From: Bacteroidales bacterium
Lineage (GTDB): Bacteria; Bacteroidota; Bacteroidia; Bacteroidales; S143-33
Reading direction: 5' to 3'
Assembly: GCA_015489395.1 (NCBI GenBank)
Contig: WFZV01000105.1
Location: 1-32,994 of the forward strand
Length of the DNA: 32,994 nucleotides
Below, one piece after another: positions 14,477-32,833 of this stretch. The notes beneath the pieces are model-generated. The model was not told the DNA's origin and did no database searches. It worked only from the letters and a program-made list of their open reading frames with translations. The first letter of the stretch is position 1. Each line of letters starts with the position of its first letter. A program made the translations under genes and the position numbers.

Positions 14477-15568
14477 CAAATATTTCAAAGCTATTTTGAC
14501 ATACACTGGCACATCCACTGGCATGTAATATCTTTCTTTTACGCGTTTGTATCCAAGTCGTACGATAACAGCGTTTTTCTCAGGTAAAATGATAATATAC
14601 TGTCCGTACATGCCGCGAAGGTAAGGAAATTCCATTCGCCCGTACCTGCCAATCCAGATATGTAGTCCGTAAGGCACTGGACTGCCTAATTTGTTGATTT
14701 TGCCAGCTTTGCGAGTCATCAGTGTCAGGTAGTCAGTGGAAATGATTTGTCGTCCATTGAAAAATCCATTGTTCAAAATCATAAGTCCAATACGTAGCCA
14801 ATCCATAGGAGTGGCGTAGAAACAGCAAAAGGTTTTTGTGATATCGTTTTTGTCTTTTATCCACAGGGCTTGATGTTCTGTTCCTAAGGGTTGCCATAGG
14901 TGTTTTGTAGCAAATTGGTGTATTTTTTGACCAGTAGCTTTTTCTAAAATCAGTCCAAGTAGAAGGGTATTAGCGCATTGGTATGACCAGATTTTGCCAG
15001 GTTCCTGTATGATTTTCAAATTTTTTATGAGTTTGTTTAAATCATTTGAGTAAAATGCACGAATAACATGCGAAAACGGGTTGAAAAACTGTTCGTTCCA
15101 ATTAAGGCCTGAGGTCATTGTTAAAAGATGTTCGATGGTCAGTGGGCTATTGGCAAATTGAGGCAGGAATTGCCCCACAGGTTGGTCAATGCTATTGATA
15201 TAGCCTTTGTCTAAAGCTATACCTATGAGCAAACTTGTGATAGATTTAGCGGCAGAAAACGAGTTAAGCGGTGTGTCGGCTGTTGTGTTCCAGTATTTTT
15301 CGAAGATAACGGATTGGTTTTGCGCAATAATAAAAGCCAGGGTGCGGTAGTCTTGCAGGGTTTGCAAGTCTGCTGTGTCTAATTTTTCTTGAATTTTTTT
15401 GTTAATTGCGCTTGATTGTTTGGCAGGTTGGATTGTCCAGGTTTTAAAGCAGATTTGCCATGGTTTTGGCGCCCCGCAACGAATCAGGTTTAGTAAATGC
15501 GGATATAGTGCAAACGTAATTATTATTGCAAAAGCTATGAAAAACAGTAAAATAGCTGCGATGTCCAT
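14471..15568 (-). CDS. Serine hydrolase, beta-lactamase class C / penicillin-binding-like family
   Basis: N-terminal TM; SxxK motif (SFSAAKSITSLLIG), LLTMTSGLNW, YxN (YQCANTLLLGLILEK). Confidence 0.88.
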   Translation of the reverse strand: MDIAAILLFFIAFAIIITFALYPHLLNLIRCGAPKPWQICFKTWTIQPAKQSSAINKKIQEKLDTADLQTLQDYRTLAFIIAQNQSVIFEKYWNTTADTPLNSFSAAKSITSLLIGIALDKGYINSIDQPVGQFLPQFANSPLTIEHLLTMTSGLNWNEQFFNPFSHVIRAFYSNDLNKLIKNLKIIQEPGKIWSYQCANTLLLGLILEKATGQKIHQFATKHLWQPLGTEHQALWIKDKNDITKTFCCFYATPMDWLRIGLMILNNGFFNGRQIISTDYLTLMTRKAGKINKLGSPVPYGLHIWIGRYGRMEFPYLRGMYGQYIIILPEKNAVIVRLGYKRVKERYYMPVDVPVYVKIALKYLS

Positions 15569-20365: not shown

Positions 20366-20818
20366 TTATTGATTTAGAAGTTTTTTGACAGTATCAGCAA
20401 TGAGTTTGTTGTCAGCACGTCCAGCAAATTGTTTTGTAGCAACTGCCATGACTTTACCCATGTCTCGGATGGATTTAGCGCCAACTTGTTCGATGATTTT
20501 TTTAAGTTCATTTTCCAGCTGTTGTGGAGAAAGCTGTTCAGGCAGGTATTCTTCGATGACTTTGGCCTGCATAAGTTCCTGTTCTGCCAGGTTGTCGCGG
20601 CCTTTGGATTTGTAAAGTTCAGCAGCTTCTTTGCGTTGTTTTACCATTTTTTGTAGTACTTTAAGTGCTTGTGCTTCTGTTATTTGTCCCTGGCTGCCTT
20701 CGGCTGTTTTTAAAAGTAAAAGTTCGGATTTAATTGCTCGTAATGCTTCGAGACGGTATTGGTCTTTTTGTTTCATAGCAGCCTTTAAGTCCTGATTTAT
20801 GCGTTCTAACAAGTCCAT
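20366..20818 (-). CDS. GatB/YqeY domain-containing protein
   Basis: MDLLERINQDLKAAMKQKDQYRLEALRAIKSELLLLKT...AELYKSKGRDNLAEQELMQAKVIEEYLPEQLS...DMGKVMAVATKQFAGRADNKLIADTVKKLL. Confidence 0.96.
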   Translation of the reverse strand: MDLLERINQDLKAAMKQKDQYRLEALRAIKSELLLLKTAEGSQGQITEAQALKVLQKMVKQRKEAAELYKSKGRDNLAEQELMQAKVIEEYLPEQLSPQQLENELKKIIEQVGAKSIRDMGKVMAVATKQFAGRADNKLIADTVKKLLNQ

Positions 20819-20849
20819 TTTTATAGATTTTTATGTTTTTTATGCTTAG

Positions 20850-20880
20850 TAAATTTAAAAAAATAACCGGTTTTGTCAAA
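20850..20880 (-). promoter_or_regulatory. Putative Bacteroidota-type promoter for the yqeY-ybjQ genes
   Basis: On the minus strand: TTTG - 19 nt - TAAATTTA, close to TTTG-N19-21-TAnnTTTG, just upstream of the yqeY start. Confidence 0.45.
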
Positions 20881-20897
20881 TCTCATGTTAAAAAAGC

Positions 20898-20906
20898 TGT
20901 GGATAA
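20898..20906. promoter_or_regulatory. Perfect DnaA-box 9-mer (TGTGGATAA = reverse complement of TTATCCACA)
   Basis: Exact match to the consensus DnaA box, in the intergenic region between divergent yqeY and mraZ. Confidence 0.6.
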
Positions 20907-21083
20907 CTTTTTGCGGCAAAGTACTAATTTTTTATCGATAATTAAACCAAATAATCACTTAAAGTTTAGGAAGTTAACCTATTGGTCAAATTTTCGGTTT
21001 ATGTAAAAAAATATCTGGTTTATCAAAAAAATAAAATCGTAAGTGTCTGAAAATCAAAAGTAAACGTATATTTCTTAATAACT

Positions 21084-21092
21084 TGTGGATAA
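21084..21092. promoter_or_regulatory. Second perfect DnaA-box 9-mer (TGTGGATAA), overlapping the first MraZ repeat
   Basis: Exact match in the same orientation as the box at 20898, 186 bp away. Confidence 0.55.
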
Positions 21093-21120
21093 AAGTGGTG
21101 TAAAGTGGGAGAAAGTGGGA
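21085..21120 (+). promoter_or_regulatory. MraZ-binding repeat array in the mraZ/dcw promoter
   Basis: Four GTGG cores at exact 10-bp spacing (21085, 21095, 21105, 21115): cttGTGGat aaaaGTGGtg taaaGTGGGa gaaaGTGGGa, fitting reported MraZ operators (TGGG/AAAGTG repeats). Confidence 0.8.
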
Positions 21121-21130
21121 AATTTTTTAA

Positions 21131-21138
21131 TATCTTTA
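21131..21138 (+). promoter_or_regulatory. Putative -7 element of the mraZ promoter
   Basis: TATCTTTA is close to TAnnTTTG and sits just downstream of the MraZ repeats. Confidence 0.4.
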
Positions 21139-21192
21139 CAATTAAAAGAAAACGATTAGTTTCGGTTAAAAGTCGTTGTATATTAGCTTGTT

Positions 21193-21657
21193 ATGCAAAA
21201 TTTTATTGGACATATTACTGTAAAATTAGATAGCAAGGGGCGTTTTACGTTTCCTGCGACATTTAAAAAGCAATTGGATACGGATTTTGACAACGAATTT
21301 ATTGTAAAAAAAGATATTTACGAAACATGCTTAATTCTTTACACAAAACAAAGCTGGCAACAGATTGTAAATGAATTGCAAAAAAAATTAAATCCTTACA
21401 ATCGCCAGCATAATATGTTTTTGCGAAAATTTTTCATGGAAACAGCGCAATTGTCACTGGACAACAATAACCGTTTGCTTTTACCAAAGCAAATGCTTGA
21501 TTTAGCCCAAATAGATAAAGAAATCCTGCTTATTGGCGCTGGAAATAAAATAGAGCTTTGGAACCCAGCAGTATTCGAGCAGAACATTATCAGCGACGAG
21601 CAGTTTACACAAATCGCCCAAACCATACTTGGAACGCAAAATCTTGAAAATGACTAA
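21193..21657 (+). CDS. mraZ: Division/cell wall cluster transcriptional regulator MraZ
   Basis: FIGHITVKLDSKGRFTFPATFKKQL; first gene of dcw cluster, followed by rsmH. Confidence 0.96.
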   Translation: MQNFIGHITVKLDSKGRFTFPATFKKQLDTDFDNEFIVKKDIYETCLILYTKQSWQQIVNELQKKLNPYNRQHNMFLRKFFMETAQLSLDNNNRLLLPKQMLDLAQIDKEILLIGAGNKIELWNPAVFEQNIISDEQFTQIAQTILGTQNLEND

Positions 21658-22558
21658 GCAAGCTATACATACACCTGTTTTACTCAAAGAGGCTGTTGAT
21701 GGACTGAATATCAAGTCAGATGGCATTTATATCGACGCTACGTTTGGCCAGGGAGGCCATAGCCGTGAAATTTTGAACAGACTGAAAAATAAAGGTCGTT
21801 TAATTGCATTTGACCAGGATAAATACGCTCAGAATTTTGCCATTGATGCTAAAAATTTCCTTTTGATACACAGTAATTTCGTCTATATACCGAATTTTTT
21901 GAGACTTTTAAACATCGAAAAAGTCGATGGGATTTTAGCAGATTTAGGCATAAGTTCGGCACATCTGGATATGCCCGAACGGGGGTTTAGTTACCGTTTT
22001 GATGCACCTTTGGACATGCGTATGAATCAAGAGCAACAGCTCACTGCCCAGCAGGTTATAAACGAATATTCTTTAGACGAATTAACAGAGATAATCAAAA
22101 ATTATGGAGAATTGCGAAATGCCAGGCAAATCGCACAGGCTATTGTAGAACGCCGTAAAAATAGCAAAATAAAAACTACTTTCGACCTTGTCGAAACTGT
22201 GCGGCATCTGTTTCCACAGCGCTTTTTGAACAAAAATCTTTCTAAACTGTTCCAGGCAATTAGAATTGAGGTCAATAGCGAACTTGAAAACTTGAAAAAA
22301 CTTTTACTCATAGGCAAAGAGCATATTAAACCAGGCGGACGGTTTGTCATCATTAGCTTTCATTCTCTGGAGGACAGGTTGGTTAAAAATTTCTTCAAAA
22401 CTGGGAGCTTTGACGGAATCATTGAAAAAGACATTTACGGAAATTTTCAAACTCCGTTTAAGCTTGTAAATAAGAAAGTTATAACACCTGACTGGCAAGA
22501 ACAACAAAAAAATCCACGGGCAAGAAGCGCAAAACTTAGAATCGCCGAAAAATTATAA
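21650..22558 (+). CDS. rsmH: 16S rRNA (cytosine1402-N4)-methyltransferase RsmH
   Basis: HTPVLLKEAVDGL, YIDATFGQGGHSREIL, GILADLGISSAHLDMPERGFSYRFDAPLDMRM, ISFHSLEDRLVKNFF. ATG at 21650 overlaps the mraZ stop. Confidence 0.97.
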   Translation: MTKQAIHTPVLLKEAVDGLNIKSDGIYIDATFGQGGHSREILNRLKNKGRLIAFDQDKYAQNFAIDAKNFLLIHSNFVYIPNFLRLLNIEKVDGILADLGISSAHLDMPERGFSYRFDAPLDMRMNQEQQLTAQQVINEYSLDELTEIIKNYGELRNARQIAQAIVERRKNSKIKTTFDLVETVRHLFPQRFLNKNLSKLFQAIRIEVNSELENLKKLLLIGKEHIKPGGRFVIISFHSLEDRLVKNFFKTGSFDGIIEKDIYGNFQTPFKLVNKKVITPDWQEQQKNPRARSAKLRIAEKL

Positions 22559-22567
22559 ATCACAGGC

Positions 22568-22858
22568 ATGAGCAAAAAAGGGTTTTTAAATAGCCGCAAG
22601 CAAAGATTAACGTTGTTGGTGATTTTTATAATTCTGGTTTTATACACTATGTACCAGGGCGTTGTCAACAAATATCTCAAATATAAGGACGATTTGCTAA
22701 AACAGACGAAAATCTTGAGAGCCAAACACATAGAGATTTCACAAAAGCTACTTTACATCGAGCTGGAAGGAAATATCGAAAAAGAAATAAAAAGACGTCA
22801 TCTCAACCTTGTTAAAGACCAGTATCCCAAAATAATTTATGTCGAACCGTCAAAATAA
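22568..22858 (+). CDS. ftsL: FtsL-like small bitopic division protein
   Basis: 96 aa, single N-terminal TM then coiled coil, between rsmH and ftsI. Confidence 0.8.
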   Translation: MSKKGFLNSRKQRLTLLVIFIILVLYTMYQGVVNKYLKYKDDLLKQTKILRAKHIEISQKLLYIELEGNIEKEIKRRHLNLVKDQYPKIIYVEPSK

Positions 22859-22866
22859 AAACACAG

Positions 22867-25020
22867 GTGACGAGCAAAAAGAATTTACATAAAAACGAGA
22901 GTCTGAAAAACATACACAAACGATATGCTCTTATTTTTTACATTTTTCTGATACTCAGTTTGTTAGTGGTGTTGAAGATTTTTTACATACAAACGTTTCG
23001 TAAAAAGCTGTTGTTGAAGTACGACTATTCCATAACCACAGACAAGGTTTATGGTTTGCGCGGGGATATTTTATCCCGTAATGGTAAGCTTTTGGCAACA
23101 ACTTCGATAACTTATGATATCTACTACGACCCAAATACCGAATATCTTAAGGCTCATGATTCGCTGTTTTACTCGAATTTAGATACAATCAGCCGTGGAC
23201 TTTCGCAGATTCTTGGCGATAAAACTCCACAGCAGTACAAAGACTATTTACTCAGGGCAAAGCAGCAGGGAGTAGAATATTTACCAATCAAGAAAAACGT
23301 AACTATCGAACAGTACAAACAGTTGAAAAAGCTGCCAGTATTTCGTTTGGGTCGTTACAAAGGCGGACTTATAGCACAAGAACACTACCAACGTATAAAA
23401 CCGTTTGGTAAGCTTGCGTCGCGTACTATTGGCGATTTTTATTACAATTCCACCAGGAGAATAGTCGGTGTGGAACGGGCTTATAACGAGCAACTCAGTG
23501 GCGTCCCTGGCATAGCTAAATACAAAGCTATTTCTGGCTCAAAAAGAGTGGTTTATAAAGTTTTGATACCACCAGAAGATGGAGCCAGTGTTTTGACGTC
23601 TTTAGACATGAACTTACAAAATTTTGTGGAAAATACTTTAGAACAGCAACTCAGGGATTTAGACGCACAATGGGGTTGTGCTGTAGTGATGGATGTAAAA
23701 TCCGGGGAAGTTTTAGCAATGGCAAATCTCCAGCAAAGTAAGTCAGATAGCACAAAATATTATGAAAGCTATAACTATGCTATCGCTCATTTGTACGAAG
23801 TTGGCTCTGTGATGAAACCTTTTTCCATGCTTGCTTTGTTTGAATTTCGTCCACAAGTGTCTTTAAATGAGCCGGTTAATGTTAATACGATTCATCTTCA
23901 TTTAGATAAGAATGTTGTTGTGAGCGATGATTTTAAACATCCTCTTGGATATACGACTTTGCTTAATGTTGTTGCGCATTCTTCGAATATTGGTGTGATT
24001 AAAGTCATTCAAAAATATTTTTACAACCACCAATATGATTTTGTCAATAGGCTTGTGGATTTGGGGTTGTCGAAATATACTGGTTTTGACATTCCTGGCG
24101 AGCAACCAGAGGAACTCAAAGACCCTGAGCAAAAACGTTGGTGGAAGCTGGTTTCGCTCAGTATGTTGGCTATTGGTTACGAGTACCAGATGACACCAAT
24201 TGAAGTGTTGAGCATTTACAACGCTATAGCTAATAATGGTTTGTACGTTACGCCGCATGTCGGAAAAGCTATTATTAAAAATGGAGAAGTTAAAAAACTT
24301 GTTTATGGCAATTCGCATTATATTGCTTCGCGTCAATCTATTAAAAAAGTGCAGAAGATGCTTGAAGCTGTTGTCGAATTTGGTACAGCTTCACACACAG
24401 TTAAAAGTAATATTGTTAAAATAGCAGGTAAAACTGGAACTGCAAAAATTTTAGACCGGAAGACAAGACATTACATCGAACAGTACAACACTACGTTTGT
24501 GGGCTATTTCCCGGCAGATAAACCTAAATATTCGATGATTGTCGTTATCCATAAACCACAGAAATACGGCCATCGTACTGGCGCTACGGCTTCTGGACCG
24601 GTTTTTAAGAAAGTCGCTGAATATTTGTACAAAAACGATCCGTCTATGCACGAGAAACAGAGTTACGACGTACAGCTTTTTGACAAAAAGAACGATTTAC
24701 CAAGTATCAAATTTGGACGAAAAGATTATATAATCGACGTTTTGAATCATTTTGACATTTTTGTGAAGAAACAATACCGAAAAAACGCATATTTTGTGCG
24801 GGGATTCCCTGAAAATAAGGCTATTGCATTGTACAAAGTCCGGATACAGCGCGGTTATGTACCGGACGTAAGAGGCATGAGTGCCGAAGATGCAACGTAC
24901 ATCTTAGAGAATTTAGGCCTTAAAGTCAAAATCAAAGGACGGGGGAAAGTTTTTAAACAATCAATTTTACCAAACACAAAATTTAAAAAAGGTCAAACTA
25001 TAACACTATCACTCAGGTGA
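22867..25020 (+). CDS. ftsI: Penicillin-binding protein FtsI with C-terminal PASTA domain
   Basis: GTG start; TM; SVMK (SxxK), HSSN (SxN), AGKTGTAKI (KTG); C-terminal VPDVRGMSAEDATYILENLGLKVKIKG (PASTA). Confidence 0.96.
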   Translation: MTSKKNLHKNESLKNIHKRYALIFYIFLILSLLVVLKIFYIQTFRKKLLLKYDYSITTDKVYGLRGDILSRNGKLLATTSITYDIYYDPNTEYLKAHDSLFYSNLDTISRGLSQILGDKTPQQYKDYLLRAKQQGVEYLPIKKNVTIEQYKQLKKLPVFRLGRYKGGLIAQEHYQRIKPFGKLASRTIGDFYYNSTRRIVGVERAYNEQLSGVPGIAKYKAISGSKRVVYKVLIPPEDGASVLTSLDMNLQNFVENTLEQQLRDLDAQWGCAVVMDVKSGEVLAMANLQQSKSDSTKYYESYNYAIAHLYEVGSVMKPFSMLALFEFRPQVSLNEPVNVNTIHLHLDKNVVVSDDFKHPLGYTTLLNVVAHSSNIGVIKVIQKYFYNHQYDFVNRLVDLGLSKYTGFDIPGEQPEELKDPEQKRWWKLVSLSMLAIGYEYQMTPIEVLSIYNAIANNGLYVTPHVGKAIIKNGEVKKLVYGNSHYIASRQSIKKVQKMLEAVVEFGTASHTVKSNIVKIAGKTGTAKILDRKTRHYIEQYNTTFVGYFPADKPKYSMIVVIHKPQKYGHRTGATASGPVFKKVAEYLYKNDPSMHEKQSYDVQLFDKKNDLPSIKFGRKDYIIDVLNHFDIFVKKQYRKNAYFVRGFPENKAIALYKVRIQRGYVPDVRGMSAEDATYILENLGLKVKIKGRGKVFKQSILPNTKFKKGQTITLSLR

Positions 25021-26480
25021 TTATGACCAGAAAATTAGACGACATATTACAAGGAGTGCAGATTCTCAAGGTAAAAGGCAGCACAGACAAACAAATTAGT
25101 TCGTTGAGCATAGACTCACGACGTGTCGAACCGGGTGCTTTATTCATTGCTCTAACAGGCACAAAAACTGACGGACATAAATTTATCCCAAAAGCCATTG
25201 AGAAAGGCGCAATAGCCATTGTTTGCGAAATTTGCACGGATTTAGACAACGTAACCACAATACAGGTCGAAAATTCACACGTTGCTTTAGCCAGAATAGC
25301 TGCAAACTTTTACAATAATCCGAGTTATGACTTAAAATTAGTTGGCGTAACAGGCACAAATGGAAAAACCACTATCGCTACAACGCTTTACAACTTTTTC
25401 GAGATTTTGGGACATAAAGCCGGTTTGATTTCTACGATAAGATATTTAGCTCACAAAGTCGAAGAACCTGCTACGCACACTACACCCGACGCTATTACCG
25501 TTAATCGGCTGCTCAGAAAAATGGTCGATAATGACTGCATTTACGCTTTTATGGAGGTCAGTTCGCACGCTCTGGACCAGCATCGCACAGATTTTCTGGA
25601 TTTTGACGGTGCGATTTTCACTAATCTTACGCACGATCACCTTGACTATCACAAAACTTTAAAAGACTACTTATTTGCCAAAAAGCGGCTCTTTGACAAC
25701 CTGAAACCCGAAGCTTTTGCATTGGTCAATGCCGACGACAAACACTCAAACATCATTGTGCAGAATACCAAAGCCACTGTTTATACATTCGGACTGAAAA
25801 ATTTAGCTGATTTTAAAGCTAAAATCCTTGAAAAACACATCAATGGCACGCTTGTACTGATCGAAGGTTCTGAGGTTTGGCTGCAGTTGGTTGGGCAATA
25901 TAACATTTCGAACATGTTGGCTGTGTATGCCACAGCCCGGCTTCTGGGCATTGATAAAATTACGGCTCTGACTGCGCTTAGCAGAATTAAGCCGGTCGAA
26001 GGACGGTTCGAGACAATTACGGCAAACGGCATAACAGCAATTGTCGATTATGCCCATACACCAGACGCATTGGAAAATATTTTAAACGAACTTAAGTCTC
26101 TTGTACAGCCCGGGCAGCGAATTATTACTGTGTTCGGTGCTGGTGGAAACCGCGATAAGGAAAAACGGCCTAAAATGGGACATATTGCTTCAAAACTGTC
26201 TGATTTGGTGGTTATTACGTCTGACAATCCACGCGATGAAGACCCGGAGGAGATTATCGAACATATAAAGCAAGGTGTTGATAATCAGCAGTCTGTCAGG
26301 GTGCTGGTTAATCCAGACCGCCGCGAAGCTATACGAACAGCACTTAGCCTGGCAAATGAGGGGGATATAGTTTTAGTTGCTGGAAAAGGTCATGAGACTT
26401 ATCAGGAAATACAGGGTAAAAAATATCATTTTGACGATCGTGAGGTTATAAAGGAATTTTTTGGTCTAATTCAACTTTAA
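25017..26480 (+). CDS. murE: UDP-MurNAc-tripeptide synthetase MurE (probably meso-DAP-adding)
   Basis: VTGTNGKTTIATTLYNF, TNLTHDHLDYHKTL, ITSDNPRDEDPEEII (DNPR motif, associated with meso-DAP ligases). GTG 25017 or ATG 25023 start. Confidence 0.97.
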   Translation: MIMTRKLDDILQGVQILKVKGSTDKQISSLSIDSRRVEPGALFIALTGTKTDGHKFIPKAIEKGAIAIVCEICTDLDNVTTIQVENSHVALARIAANFYNNPSYDLKLVGVTGTNGKTTIATTLYNFFEILGHKAGLISTIRYLAHKVEEPATHTTPDAITVNRLLRKMVDNDCIYAFMEVSSHALDQHRTDFLDFDGAIFTNLTHDHLDYHKTLKDYLFAKKRLFDNLKPEAFALVNADDKHSNIIVQNTKATVYTFGLKNLADFKAKILEKHINGTLVLIEGSEVWLQLVGQYNISNMLAVYATARLLGIDKITALTALSRIKPVEGRFETITANGITAIVDYAHTPDALENILNELKSLVQPGQRIITVFGAGGNRDKEKRPKMGHIASKLSDLVVITSDNPRDEDPEEIIEHIKQGVDNQQSVRVLVNPDRREAIRTALSLANEGDIVLVAGKGHETYQEIQGKKYHFDDREVIKEFFGLIQL

Positions 26481-26501
26481 CACAAAATAAATAGCGCTCA
26501 A

Positions 26502-27713
26502 ATGTTGTACTACTTGTTTAAATATCTCAACGACATAGATGTTCCTGGTGCAGGTTTGTTCAATTTTATTTCATTTCGCGCAGGTTTGACGTTGCTAACG
26601 TCTTTGATTATAGCGATTTGGGGCGGAAAAAAGCTTATTGAGCTTTTACAACGGTTACAAATCGGTGAAGTAGTCAGAGACCTGGGATTAGAAGGGCAAT
26701 ATAGTAAGCAGGGAACACCGACAATGGGCGGGATAATTATTATTTTATCGATAATAGTTCCTGTGCTTTTGTTTGCAAAGTTAGACAATATTTACATACA
26801 GCTGATGCTGCTGGCAACTATTTGGCTGGGAATCATTGGATTTATCGACGATTATATAAAGGTTTTCAAGAAAAATAAGGCTGGACTGCATGGTAAGTTT
26901 AAAATTTTAGGACAGGTTGTGCTTGGCATAGTGGTTTCTGCTGCAATTATTTTTAGCAAGCAAATCGTTATACGTCCAAATCCTGAGCAGCATCAAAACG
27001 TACCAAATGAACAGATTATCAAGTCAGATGTTAAGTCGATGAAAACTACAATCCCATTTGTAAAGTCGCACGAATTGGATTATGAAGCTTTGTTGAAAGA
27101 CATTGGGATAAAAAACAAGTGGCTGATTTATTTGATTTTTACGTTTTGGGTAATTTTCATAATCGCTGGAGTGTCCAATGGAGCGAATTTGACTGATGGA
27201 TTAGATGGTTTGGCTGCAGGGACAACGGCTGTGGCTTTGTCGTCCCTGGCGGTGTTTGTGTATGTTTCGGGTAATGTGATTTTAGCAGAATATTTGAAAA
27301 TTATGTATATCCCGCGGATTGGGGAGATGACAGTTTTTATCGCAGCTTTTATTGGTGCTTTAGTGGGGTTTTTGTGGTATAATGCTTATCCTGCGCAGAT
27401 TTTCATGGGTGATACAGGTAGTTTGACAATTGGAGGTATTATTGCAATAATAGCGATTTTAGCGCGGAAAGAATTGCTTTTGCCTATAATTGCAGGGATT
27501 TATCTTGCTGAGACTCTGTCGGTTATAATTCAGGTAAGCTATTTTAAGTACACAAAACGTAAGTATGGGGAAGGTCGCAGAATCTTTTTGATGTCGCCAT
27601 TGCATCATCATTTTCAGCTCAAGAATATCCCTGAGCCTAAGATAGTTGCACGATTTATTATCGTGGCTATTTTTCTTGGGGTTTTGTCGGTTATAACCTT
27701 AAAAATCAGGTAA
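26502..27713 (+). CDS. mraY: Phospho-MurNAc-pentapeptide transferase MraY
   Basis: QGTPTMGGIIII, GFIDDYIKV, NLTDGLDGLAAG, AQIFMGDTGSLTIGG, MSPLHHHFQL. Confidence 0.98.
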   Translation: MLYYLFKYLNDIDVPGAGLFNFISFRAGLTLLTSLIIAIWGGKKLIELLQRLQIGEVVRDLGLEGQYSKQGTPTMGGIIIILSIIVPVLLFAKLDNIYIQLMLLATIWLGIIGFIDDYIKVFKKNKAGLHGKFKILGQVVLGIVVSAAIIFSKQIVIRPNPEQHQNVPNEQIIKSDVKSMKTTIPFVKSHELDYEALLKDIGIKNKWLIYLIFTFWVIFIIAGVSNGANLTDGLDGLAAGTTAVALSSLAVFVYVSGNVILAEYLKIMYIPRIGEMTVFIAAFIGALVGFLWYNAYPAQIFMGDTGSLTIGGIIAIIAILARKELLLPIIAGIYLAETLSVIIQVSYFKYTKRKYGEGRRIFLMSPLHHHFQLKNIPEPKIVARFIIVAIFLGVLSVITLKIR

Positions 27714-29039
27714 ATGGTCGTAGTGTTGGGTGCTGGTGAAAGCGGCATAGGAGCAGCTTTACTGGCAAAATCGAAAAATATCGATGTTTTTGTTTCAGAT
27801 TTAGGTCGTATAAAGCCTAATTATCTTTCGGAGTTGCAGCAAAATAACATTGATTTTGAGCAAGGTAAGCATAGTGAAGATAAAATTTTAAGTGCTGATG
27901 TTATTGTTAAAAGTCCAGGTATTCCCGACAATGCGCCTATTGTTCAGAAGGCTAAGGCAAAAGGCATTAAGGTTATTTCTGAAATCGAATTTGCATGGCA
28001 GTTTACAAACGGAACGTTCATTGGCATTACTGGCAGCAATGGCAAAACTACAACTACTTTGCTGACATACGAGATACTCAAAAACGCTGGATATGACGTG
28101 GCTTTGACTGGCAATGTGGGCGTTAGCCTGGCAAGGCTTCTGGCAAAACGTGATTACCAGTATTTCGTCGTTGAATTGAGCAGTTTTCAGCTTGATGGGT
28201 GCTTTGATTTTAACCCGCATGTGGCTGTTTTGCTGAATATTACGCCTGACCATTTAGACCGTTACGAAAATAAATTTGAAAATTACATAAACTCTAAATT
28301 CCGGATCGCACAGAACCATGGACCAGAGGACTATTTCATTTATTGGCTTGATGACCCGAACATAAAAAAATATTTGACAAGGCATAAAATCGTTTCCAGA
28401 CATATACCATTTAGCTATAAAAAACAAGACCGTGCGTCTGCTTACATTCAAGACAGTACAATGTACGTAAAAGTAAATCAAAAACTTTTCACTATGGACG
28501 TAAAACAAATTAGTCTTCAGGGACGGCACAATTTATATAATTCGATGGCGGCAGCAGCTGCTGCTTTAGCCGTAAATGTTAAAAACGAGTACATCAAGCG
28601 CACTTTGCAGACTTTCAAAGGGGTCGAACATCGCCTTGAAAAATTCTTGAGTATTCGCGGTATTACGTTTATCAACGATTCCAAGGCTACAAACGTAAAT
28701 TCTGTTTGGTACGCATTGGAGACAATGCAGCGGCCTGTGGTGTTGATTATGGGCGGCGTTGACAAAGGCAATGATTATAGTTTGCTTTTTGACCTGGTAA
28801 AGAAAAAAGTAAAAGCTATCGTAGCGCTTGGCAAGGATAACAGTAAGATTATCAGGACTTTTAGCCGCCTGGTGCCGGTTTACGACACTCATTCCATGGA
28901 GCAAGCAGTGCGTCAGGCTTATTTGCTTGCAGAAAAGGGTGATGTAGTGCTACTTTCGCCGGCATGTGCGAGCTTTGATTTGTTTGAAAATTATATAGAC
29001 CGCGGTAATAAATTCAAAGAAGCTGTACGTAATCTCTAA
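27714..29039 (+). CDS. murD: UDP-MurNAc-L-Ala-D-Glu ligase MurD
   Basis: VVLGAGESGIGAALLA, SPGIP, GITGSNGKTTTTLL, NITPDHLDRY, FINDSKATNVNSV, LLSPACASFDLFENYIDRGNKF. Confidence 0.97.
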   Translation: MVVVLGAGESGIGAALLAKSKNIDVFVSDLGRIKPNYLSELQQNNIDFEQGKHSEDKILSADVIVKSPGIPDNAPIVQKAKAKGIKVISEIEFAWQFTNGTFIGITGSNGKTTTTLLTYEILKNAGYDVALTGNVGVSLARLLAKRDYQYFVVELSSFQLDGCFDFNPHVAVLLNITPDHLDRYENKFENYINSKFRIAQNHGPEDYFIYWLDDPNIKKYLTRHKIVSRHIPFSYKKQDRASAYIQDSTMYVKVNQKLFTMDVKQISLQGRHNLYNSMAAAAAALAVNVKNEYIKRTLQTFKGVEHRLEKFLSIRGITFINDSKATNVNSVWYALETMQRPVVLIMGGVDKGNDYSLLFDLVKKKVKAIVALGKDNSKIIRTFSRLVPVYDTHSMEQAVRQAYLLAEKGDVVLLSPACASFDLFENYIDRGNKFKEAVRNL

Positions 29040-29052
29040 TTTTCAAAAAGTT

Positions 29053-30249
29053 ATGGCAACAGATTTATCGAAAATAATCGCAAAGGGTGACCGTAGGTTG
29101 TGGACATGGTATTTAGCAACGTTAGCATTTTCGATTTTAATTACAGCGTCAAGTACCACGACTCTGAGTATTCTCAGCCGTGGCAGTGTGTTTTTTTACT
29201 GGTTTAAGCACTTAATTTTTATCCTGAGTGGAGCGGTCCTGGTGTATTTTGTAAGTCGTATGCCCAGAGAGTATTTGAATTTGATGTACAATTTAGCAGA
29301 TGCTCTTTTGTATGTTTCTGGTTTTCTGTTGATTATAACTTTGTTTTTTGGTGTGGAAAAAGCGGAGGCAAAGCGTTGGCTGACTGTATTTGGATTTCAG
29401 TTTCAACCATCGGAGTTTGCCAAATTTTCCATGATTTTATATGCAGCAAAGCAGTTGACAATAGCTGCTCGTCATAAAAAGCAGGCTAAAAAAGCTCTGG
29501 ATAATTTGTTCTGGACATCGCTGGTAATTGCCGGGCTAATTGCTACAAACAACCTTTCGACTGCTGTTATAATTTTAACTATTGTTATTGGTTTGATTTT
29601 TATCGCAGAAATTAGCGAAGAGCAACGCAAAAGATTGATAAAAAATTACGCTATTATAGCTGCTTTTGGGCTATTACTAATCTTGTTGATGCCCGGACAT
29701 GTTTTTCGATCAAGTACCTGGAGAAATCGAATTAAACAGATGATTTATCCGCATTATTCGTATGCTGACCAGAGTACACAGGCAAAAATCGCAATAGCAA
29801 AAGGCGGTTTGGTTAATTTAAAGTTGGGGAAAGGTGAGCAAAAAGCGCTTATTCCGCAGGAGTATTCAGATTATTTGTTTTCAGTAATTGTCGAAGAATT
29901 GGGACTTTTTGGTGGTGTGCTAACTATTATTCTGTATTTATGGTTGTTGTCGTTAATTGCGCGTATGGTTTCGCGGTTAAAGCGAACGTTTTTGGTTTAC
30001 GTAATTGCGGGTTTTGGTTTAAGTATAGAAATTCAAGCTTTCGTGCATATTATGGTAAATGTTGGGCTAATACCAGTGACAGGGCAGCCATTGCCGTTTA
30101 TGAGTTTGGGCGGAACATCGATTTTATTTAATTCGTTGATGATCGGCATAATAATAAGTATTTCACGGTATGTCAAGAAAAATCCTAAACCGGTTTACAA
30201 CGAACCAGTTGATTTTACTTTAGAAAAAAATAAAATAATTCTCAACTAA
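29053..30249 (+). CDS. ftsW: Lipid II polymerase/division protein FtsW
   Basis: Multi-TM SEDS protein; FQFQPSEFAKFSMILY, AIAKGGLVNLKLGKGEQKALIPQEYSDYLFSVIVEELG, GLIPVTGQPLPFMSLGGTSILFN. Confidence 0.97.
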   Translation: MATDLSKIIAKGDRRLWTWYLATLAFSILITASSTTTLSILSRGSVFFYWFKHLIFILSGAVLVYFVSRMPREYLNLMYNLADALLYVSGFLLIITLFFGVEKAEAKRWLTVFGFQFQPSEFAKFSMILYAAKQLTIAARHKKQAKKALDNLFWTSLVIAGLIATNNLSTAVIILTIVIGLIFIAEISEEQRKRLIKNYAIIAAFGLLLILLMPGHVFRSSTWRNRIKQMIYPHYSYADQSTQAKIAIAKGGLVNLKLGKGEQKALIPQEYSDYLFSVIVEELGLFGGVLTIILYLWLLSLIARMVSRLKRTFLVYVIAGFGLSIEIQAFVHIMVNVGLIPVTGQPLPFMSLGGTSILFNSLMIGIIISISRYVKKNPKPVYNEPVDFTLEKNKIILN

Positions 30250-31352
30250 TGAGCGAACAGCCAAAAATAATAATTACTGGCGGAGGTACAGGTGGACATG
30301 TTTTCCCTGCGATAGCCATTGCAGATGCAATAAAAGAGCTTAATCCTGATGCTCAAATATTATTCATTGGAGCAGAGGATAGGTTTGAGATGAAGGCTGT
30401 ACCAAAAGCAGGTTATGAGATAATCGGATTGCCTGTTCGAGGTTTGAAACGAAAACTGAGTTTTGAAAATCTCAAGACTATTTTCCTTTTGTTTAAATCA
30501 ATCAGCAGGACTAAAAAGATTTTCAGAAGTTTCAAACCATGTGCGGTTGTGGGCGTAGGAGGATACGCCAGTGCGCCGGCTTTGCGGGTTGCCAGTTTAA
30601 GGCGAATACCGATTATTTTGCAAGAGCAAAACTCGTTTCCGGGCATTACGAATAAAGTTTTTGCCAAATATGCTTATCGAATTTGTGTGGCTTACGAGCA
30701 GGCGTTTAAGTATTTCCCTGAAGGGCGAACGGTTTTGACTGGTAATCCTGTCAGACATGAGGTTTTAAACGTCAAAGTTACTAAAGACCAGGCTTTGAAA
30801 GAGTTTGGTTTAAGTACAGACAAAAAAACTCTGTTGATAACCGGTGGCAGTCTGGGAGCGCGTACGTTGAACCAGTCGGTTTTAGAGCATTTAGAGAAGT
30901 TGTCGCAGGCAAATATTCAGGTCATCTGGCAAACAGGAAAATATTATTACGATGAAATTATATCCACAGTCCAGGAGCAAGATTGGTTAAAAATAATGCC
31001 ATTTATCGAAAACATGGTTAATGCTTACATTGCTGCGGATCTTGTAATTGCCCGTGCTGGTGCTATAACTATTTCAGAGTTAAGCGTTTTGGGAAAACCA
31101 GCTATTTTTGTTCCATCGCCTAATGTTGCCGAGGACCATCAGACGAAAAATGCTCAGGCTTTGGTCGAGAAAAAAGCAGCTTTAATGATCAAAGATTCTC
31201 AGGCGCGGGAAAAACTTATTCCATTGGCATTGAAGACTTTAAGCAATGATGAGCTTTTACAAGAACTCAGCCAGAATATTAAGTCGTTTGCAAAGCCAGA
31301 TGCAGCCAGGGATATAGCAAAAATAGTTTTAGACGCTTGTCGAAAAAATTGA
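30249..31352 (+). CDS. murG: Undecaprenyldiphospho-muramoylpentapeptide beta-N-acetylglucosaminyltransferase MurG
   Basis: IIITGGGTGGHVFPAIAIA, GVGGYASAPAL, LQEQNSFPGITNK, ITGGSLGARTLN, PSPNVAEDHQTKNA; start overlaps ftsW stop (TAATG). Confidence 0.98.
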   Translation: MSEQPKIIITGGGTGGHVFPAIAIADAIKELNPDAQILFIGAEDRFEMKAVPKAGYEIIGLPVRGLKRKLSFENLKTIFLLFKSISRTKKIFRSFKPCAVVGVGGYASAPALRVASLRRIPIILQEQNSFPGITNKVFAKYAYRICVAYEQAFKYFPEGRTVLTGNPVRHEVLNVKVTKDQALKEFGLSTDKKTLLITGGSLGARTLNQSVLEHLEKLSQANIQVIWQTGKYYYDEIISTVQEQDWLKIMPFIENMVNAYIAADLVIARAGAITISELSVLGKPAIFVPSPNVAEDHQTKNAQALVEKKAALMIKDSQAREKLIPLALKTLSNDELLQELSQNIKSFAKPDAARDIAKIVLDACRKN

Positions 31353-31380
31353 AAAAATTATGCAAAAATTTTATGTAAAG

Positions 31381-31413
31381 TTTGCTTTACTAAGATAATT
31401 TTTTATAAATTCG
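31381..31413 (+). promoter_or_regulatory. Putative internal promoter for murC-ftsQ
   Basis: TTTG - 21 nt - TAAATTCG in the 113-bp murG-murC gap, the largest gap inside the dcw run. Confidence 0.35.
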
Positions 31414-31465
31414 CAGAATAAACTCTTTAAAAAGTTAAAAATCAGTAAATTAAACAAATTCAATA

Positions 31466-32833
31466 GTGAACGAAAGCCAGGTAAAATATTACTTTTTCTT
31501 AGGAATTGGCGGAATCGGAATGAGCGCCTTAGCGAGATATTTGAATTTACAGGGCTATAGGATTTTGGGATATGATATGCAAAAAACTAATTTGACTCAA
31601 ACGCTGGAGACTCAGGGAATTAAAGTCTTTTATCAGGACGATGAGAATAATATACCCGATGATTTAAACAAAGACAATACAATCGTTGTGCTTACGCCAG
31701 CTATACGGACAGGTAACCTGCTAAATTTTTTCAAAAACCATGGATTTACGATACTCAAACGGGCTGAGCTTTTGGCCAGTATTGTTAATGATAGCAGATT
31801 AATCGCAATCAGCGGAACACATGGAAAAACAACCACTACAGCAATTACGGCTCATATTTTTAAATTAGCCGGTAAATTAAATGTTGGATTTGTCGGTGGC
31901 ATAACAAAAAATTATAAATCTAACTTTATCCGTGGCAATGGTCAGTTTTCTGTTGTTGAAGCTGACGAATACGACAGGGCGTTTTTACTGCTAAAACCTG
32001 ATTTTGCTATTATTACTTCAATCGAACCAGACCATTTAGATATTTACCAGAACTACGAAAACTTAAAACAGGCTTTTGTTCAGTTCGTAAAAGGTTCTAA
32101 GCAGAATGCAAAGATTTTAATAAATAAAAACATACAACTGCAAGGCTTAAACCGTGAAGTTTACTATTACAGCGTTTCGGACAAAGCAGATTTCTATGTT
32201 TCGAATATTCATCATTGCAACCACAGGCAATATTTTGTCTTACACTTAAATGATACAGACATAAGCACTTATATACGTTTTCCTGGTAAAGCTTATTTAG
32301 AAAATGCTTTAGCTGCTGCTGCAATCGCTTATTTGTCGGGCATTGAACCTAAAATTATTAAGCAAGCTCTGGAGACTTATCTGGGAACTGATAGACGTTT
32401 TGACCTGAAATACAGTGACTCAGTGCATTATATTTACGATGATTATGCACATCATCCAACTGAAATTCAAGCTCTTTATCAAAGCGTTAGTTTGTTTCAT
32501 CCAGACAAGCATTTGACAATCGCCTTTCAACCGCATCTTTATTCGCGGACAAGGGATTTTGCAGAGCAGTTTGGATTGGCATTGAGCAAATTTGATAAAG
32601 TAATTGTAACCGACATTTATCCTGCACGGGAAAAGCCAATTCCTGGCGTGAACCCGCAATTAATTTTGAAATACGTAAAACATCAAAACAAACAATACGT
32701 TCCATTTAAAAATCTGGTCGATTTTCTTCAGAAGCAGGATTTTGAAGTGCTTTTAATCACAGGGGCTGGAAATATCAACACAATTATTCCTGAACTTGTA
32801 AAACAACTCAAAAATATTTATGAGAATAAGTAA
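31466..32833 (+). CDS. murC: UDP-N-acetylmuramate-L-alanine ligase MurC
   Basis: GTG start; FLGIGGIGMSALARYL, ISGTHGKTTTTAITAHIF, EADEYDRAFL, DDYAHHPTEIQA, FQPHLYSRT. Confidence 0.97.
   Translation: MNESQVKYYFFLGIGGIGMSALARYLNLQGYRILGYDMQKTNLTQTLETQGIKVFYQDDENNIPDDLNKDNTIVVLTPAIRTGNLLNFFKNHGFTILKRAELLASIVNDSRLIAISGTHGKTTTTAITAHIFKLAGKLNVGFVGGITKNYKSNFIRGNGQFSVVEADEYDRAFLLLKPDFAIITSIEPDHLDIYQNYENLKQAFVQFVKGSKQNAKILINKNIQLQGLNREVYYYSVSDKADFYVSNIHHCNHRQYFVLHLNDTDISTYIRFPGKAYLENALAAAAIAYLSGIEPKIIKQALETYLGTDRRFDLKYSDSVHYIYDDYAHHPTEIQALYQSVSLFHPDKHLTIAFQPHLYSRTRDFAEQFGLALSKFDKVIVTDIYPAREKPIPGVNPQLILKYVKHQNKQYVPFKNLVDFLQKQDFEVLLITGAGNINTIIPELVKQLKNIYENK

Follow-up and report, generated by a model that had tools for sequence, protein, structure and literature searches.

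Results

Architecture of the yqeY-mraZ gap

We analysed a window of 32,994 bp (contig WFZV01000105.1) from a fragmented Bacteroidales MAG, which carries mraZ followed by a run of dcw genes. Between mraZ and its divergent neighbour yqeY lies a gap of 374 bp with a G+C content of 25%, within which the following elements were found.

20366..20818, minus strand: yqeY, the divergent neighbour (Pfam PF09424, E 3.1e-43)
20819..21192: AT-rich divergent gap between yqeY and mraZ with the regulatory elements inside (from ORFs and composition)
20886..20894, minus strand: TTTTTAACA, next to the upstream box and weakly similar to a DnaA box, possibly a chance match
20898..20906, minus strand: upstream exact DnaA box TTATCCACA, a consensus match 80 bp upstream of the yqeY start
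21073..21081, minus strand: TTATTAAGA, a box with one mismatch, at the usual Bacteroidales box site (-42 from the last GTGG)
21084..21092, minus strand: exact DnaA box TTATCCACA containing MraZ unit 1, with a class-wide counterpart
21085..21118, plus strand: MraZ operator of four GTGG units, an array kept in relatives
21131..21137, plus strand: -7 element TAnnTTT, read as TATCTTT; the last GTGG starts 16 bp before it
21193..21657, plus strand: mraZ (Pfam PF02381, E 1.8e-21)
21629..32833, plus strand: downstream dcw genes, namely rsmH, a penicillin-binding protein gene and murE-, mraY-, murD-, ftsW-, murG- and murC-type genes (Pfam)

The GTGG units start at 21085, 21095, 21105 and 21115, an exact 10-bp spacing, and thus form an MraZ operator under the definition of at least three direct GTGG repeats spaced 10 bp apart before mraZ. 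The TATCTTT at 21131 is presumably a -7 promoter element of the Bacteroidota type. Both copies of TTATCCACA match the DnaA-box consensus TTWTNCACA, and the imperfect TTTTTAACA and TTATTAAGA lie 12 and 11 bp, respectively, from an exact box. We verified the coordinates that the initial annotation had given for two exact TGTGGATAA 9-mers (TTATCCACA on the minus strand), 20898-20906 and 21084-21092, in one orientation and 186 bp apart, together with its observations that the first GTGG unit shares bases with the second 9-mer (21085 falls within 21084-21092) and that a third exact copy, at 14857-14865, sits in a CDS.

Within about 210 bp the gap holds four box-like 9-mers, two of them exact and two imperfect, and it has a G+C content of 25% and divergent genes on either side. 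On these grounds it could be taken for all or part of a replication origin, which was the alternative initially put forward. However, the GC skew has the same sign to the left (+0.09) and to the right (+0.10) of the gap, as measured at the scale of this window on a MAG contig, and the dense box clusters of relatives are located elsewhere. Given that the skew does not change across the gap, we consider an origin at this site very improbable.

A box beside the MraZ array throughout Bacteroidia

We found TTWTYAACA on the plus strand in 81 of 105 distinct Bacteroidales mraZ upstream regions, compared with 1.6 (maximum 4) in dinucleotide shuffles, and its start is mostly 41-45 bp 5′ of the last GTGG. 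For a class-wide count, TTWTNMACA was searched on either strand between -75 and -20 relative to the last GTGG, with another interval of the same regions serving as the control. Such a box is present beside the array at 94 of the 105 Bacteroidales mraZ promoters (control 7/97) and at 78 of 89 from the other orders of Bacteroidia (control 15/89), and in one family it was found in 20 of 20. The commonest form at mraZ is TTWTYAACA. In the other classes of the phylum the box is mostly missing (4/20, off position), with the GTGG units still there.

At mraZ of a set from the same phylum outside Bacteroidia (L397-L416), in which a DnaA-type box is mostly lacking, we also observed a -35-like CTTGAC preceding the GTGG units.

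Furthermore, the box, the array and the -7 element keep constant spacings, with lineages differing by about one helical turn. The last GTGG is 14-16 bp from the -7 element in most of the relatives that have this element, and the box lies about 45-57 bp upstream of it. The distance from the box to MraZ unit 1 is 2-3 bp in many or most relatives, so that the two abut; in the window they overlap. A convergence of DnaA sites on the MraZ operator at the dcw promoter, as proposed in the initial annotation, is thus supported by the class-wide counts, as well as by the way the box co-varies with the recognition helix of DnaA (see below), but it does not hold for these exact 9-mers, which are not kept in the two congeners G001 and G002.

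Boxes of the same type at replication loci

Three observations speak for a motif that only resembles a DnaA box and is bound by another transcription factor or forms part of the MraZ operator, a reading that we regard as unlikely. Its commonest forms carry an A at position 6 (A6) and so do not fit TTWTNCACA, the E. coli consensus; TTATTAAC is close to a palindrome; and the box accompanies MraZ units. The tolerated letters (W at position 3, a variable position 5 and M at position 6) fit DnaA boxes and not a palindrome, the C6 and A6 forms swap at one position together with DnaA residue 435, and identical 9-mers cluster at dnaA, dnaN and parA.

Close inverted pairs of TTATYAACA were found in 79 of 149 Bacteroidales genomes, far over the reversed control. 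Most of the inverted-pair loci (n = 30) are intergenic; some precede parA or adjoin dnaN, and others are in origin-like multi-box gaps next to rpiB and nadA. TTWTYAACA is also enriched upstream of dnaA in both DnaA classes as defined by residue 435 (26 compared with 7.4, and 22 compared with 3.6, in shuffled sequences), and in one genome (G021) three boxes lie within the gyrB-dnaA gap. Genome-wide, TTATYMACA showed no excess over the reversed control in G018, indicating that it is clustering and position, and not plain counts, that identify boxes. In the relatives, no dense general clusters of boxes were found next to dnaA; oriC in Bacteroidetes is often distant from dnaA (PMC4755523).

The A6 type of 9-mer is common to Bacteroidia boxes and to two described cases, the proposed Mollicute DnaA-box motif TT(T/A)TCAACA (PMC3322544) and the box TTATCAACA of the Cyanothece linear-chromosome oriC (PMC4674748). 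In both of these cases the reported sites are origins and not mraZ.

Co-variation of box position 6 with DnaA residue 435

Residue T435 of E. coli DnaA is listed among the DNA-contacting residues (PMC7561715). We found that residue 435 is Ala in most of the Bacteroidia examined (KDHATV or RDHATV). In the genus of the window, DnaA is canonical, RDH(T/S)TV, with Thr or Ser at 435 (RDHTT and RDHST in the congeners), and the boxes of the window are canonical too. We found no dnaA gene in the MAG to which the window belongs (93% complete), and residue 435 of its own DnaA is deduced from the congeners.

Among 88 genomes, those with Ala435 have 55 A6 and 5 C6 boxes, and those with Ser/Thr435 have 5 A6 and 23 C6 boxes (Fisher test, p value = 7e-12, uncorrected), which leaves 10 of the 88 rows as exceptions to the rule. 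The enrichment of A6 boxes before dnaA in both DnaA classes likewise counts against it. With the recognition motif masked, a DnaA tree shows about five changes at residue 435; of three independent pairs on supported branches, two to three agree and practically none disagree, which is not significant. Because the tree permits only 3-5 independent changes, we do not take the Fisher value as proof.

Individual lineages provide more direct comparisons. For two rumen lineages with TTATCCACA at mraZ (L085 and L131), Ser/Thr435 was predicted before dnaA was retrieved, and was then found. In family f156, the Ala genomes (RDHATV) have TTATYAACA and the single Ser genome, G323 (RDHSTV), has TTATCCACA at the identical position. 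Furthermore, three boxes occupy matching positions in L131 and L127; every one of them is of the C type in L131, and in L127 all three are of the A type. This concerted change is evidence that the two 9-mer types are equivalent; the DnaA of L127 has Ser and is an exception to the residue 435 rule. Collectively, these comparisons give strong support, short of proof, to the view that the letter at box position 6 tracks residue 435 of DnaA, A going with Ala and C with Ser/Thr. Residue 432 (K/R) was rejected as the specificity switch, as G345 and family f156 have R432 together with A435 and A6 boxes.

We judge it somewhat more probable than an even chance that Bacteroidia possess a composite DnaA/MraZ operator tying the whole dcw cluster to the initiator, with boxes that have co-evolved with DnaA (TTWTYAACA with Ala435, TTWTCCACA with Ser/Thr), such that a lineage-wide change of the box code carried the operator along. 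The literature searched contained no report of a link between A6 boxes and residue 435 of DnaA. If this link is true, searches with the E. coli box can miss DnaA sites and origins of Bacteroidia; the E. coli DnaA box has been used in the search for a Prevotella oriC (PMC4755523).

The exact boxes of the window, compared with its congeners

Two congeners with a readable gap, G001 and G002, were compared with the window; one congener is the Bacteroidales MAG A3_metabat2_scaf2bin.202. In both G001 and G002, yqeY also adjoins the MraZ array, MraZ unit 1 reads TGTGGGCAA in G001 and TGTGGGTAA in G002, and the upstream 9-mer (20898) has no counterpart. The two exact 9-mers are therefore absent from these close relatives while the GTGG units stay, an outcome that the initial annotation had named as contradicting its reading and that does so for the letters of this species. 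The upstream box at 20898..20906 is, as judged from these sequences, lineage-specific or due to chance.

Accordingly, for the window only, TGTGGATAA might be nothing more than the way MraZ unit 1 happens to read, with the upstream 9-mer arising by chance and DnaA exerting no control in this species, irrespective of what applies to the class. In line with this, both congeners are without the exact boxes though the GTGG units persist, and in its own 2.49-Mb genome the exact TTATCCACA occurs 45 times, three-fold over the reversed control (15), mostly in coding DNA. We nevertheless think this reading less likely than control by DnaA, though it deserves serious weight. A reading of TGTGGATAA was found in only 1 of 521 MraZ units counted, that one being the unit of the window, and the two gap copies are the only ones that do not overlap a reading frame among the 30 genomic sites viewed in context. 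Two exact intergenic boxes within one 374-bp gap also stand against a genomic density of 1 per 55 kb, and a box is there in about 90% of the relatives.

A proposed composite DnaA/MraZ operator at the dcw promoter

We interpret the arrangement at mraZ and its conservation, together with the occurrence of such boxes at dnaA and further replication loci and their co-variation with residue 435, as a composite operator for DnaA and MraZ that serves the dcw cluster across the class, a reading to which we give a probability of roughly 70%. From the sequences we infer the binding of DnaA to the mraZ box as well as its regulatory sign and timing, as follows. MraZ would bind the four GTGG units, at their 10-bp spacing, over the -33 region of the mraZ/dcw promoter, and DnaA would bind the 9-bp box abutting or overlapping the upstream end of the array in nearly all Bacteroidia. 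The version of the window would consist of TTATCCACA over unit 1 and a weak second box 11 bp farther out. DnaA occupancy varies with the replication cycle, and the dcw promoter would read it out. DnaA would most likely hinder or help MraZ at the first units, and we favour a role in lifting or tuning MraZ repression over DnaA acting alone. By tuning how far MraZ occupies the array at its upstream end, DnaA may thus couple dcw transcription to the replication cycle.

In the window, the box and MraZ unit 1 share bases and simultaneous binding is therefore unlikely, which makes competition between DnaA and MraZ geometrically likely there. For most relatives, where only 2-3 nt separate the box from the array, cooperation or anti-repression is as possible as competition.

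DnaA control of division genes is known from other phyla, as for ftsL of B. subtilis. In Caulobacter, the division genes ftsZ and mipZ are controlled by DnaA, and the ftsZ promoter has two DnaA boxes (PMC3193534). These systems share with Bacteroidia the DnaA boxes in a division-gene promoter, but they have no MraZ array, whereas the Bacteroidia box keeps register with the MraZ operator. Conversely, MraZ represses dcw in E. coli and Mycoplasma, with autoregulation (PMC8475190), and direct repeats with GTG(G/T) likewise precede mraZ there; no DnaA box has been described at those operators, whereas the box of Bacteroidia abuts or overlaps unit 1. The closest precedent is the E. coli mioC promoter (Eraso et al. 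2014, as cited in PMC4446571), where a DnaA box and an overlapping MraZ site share bases in a single promoter. That case comes from one species and does not concern the dcw promoter, whereas in Bacteroidia the two sites are paired at the mraZ/dcw promoter and the pairing is repeated across the class.

How replication initiation is coupled to division genes is open in most bacteria. In the open-access literature searched, we found no paper that joins DnaA boxes with the mraZ operator in Bacteroidota, nor anything like the present arrangement for this phylum. A box in register with the MraZ operator throughout a class represents directly testable wiring.

Further loci with paired or clustered boxes

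Paired TTATTAACA/TTATCAACA boxes lie directly upstream of parA (soj) in three genomes (L181, L204 and L205). Intergenic clusters of 3-7 TTATYAACA-type boxes were found by rpiB, nadA, a coaX-like gene and others (L199, L201, L198, L197 and L193), and these clusters are candidate replication origins of Bacteroidales. On contig C145, two paired exact boxes resembled an origin but were rejected as one, as they are within a 3-kb CDS.

We also found paired boxes beside a BatD-like gene in four genomes (L178, L206, L208 and L209), with a LOG/TIGR00730-like gene on the far side in three of them, and predict that this gap is another conserved DnaA-box locus. Finally, on several contigs of G087 and G077 an identical inverted pair occurs many times per genome, often within 70 bp of a contig end; this recurrent pair probably marks the boundary of a repeat or of a mobile element.
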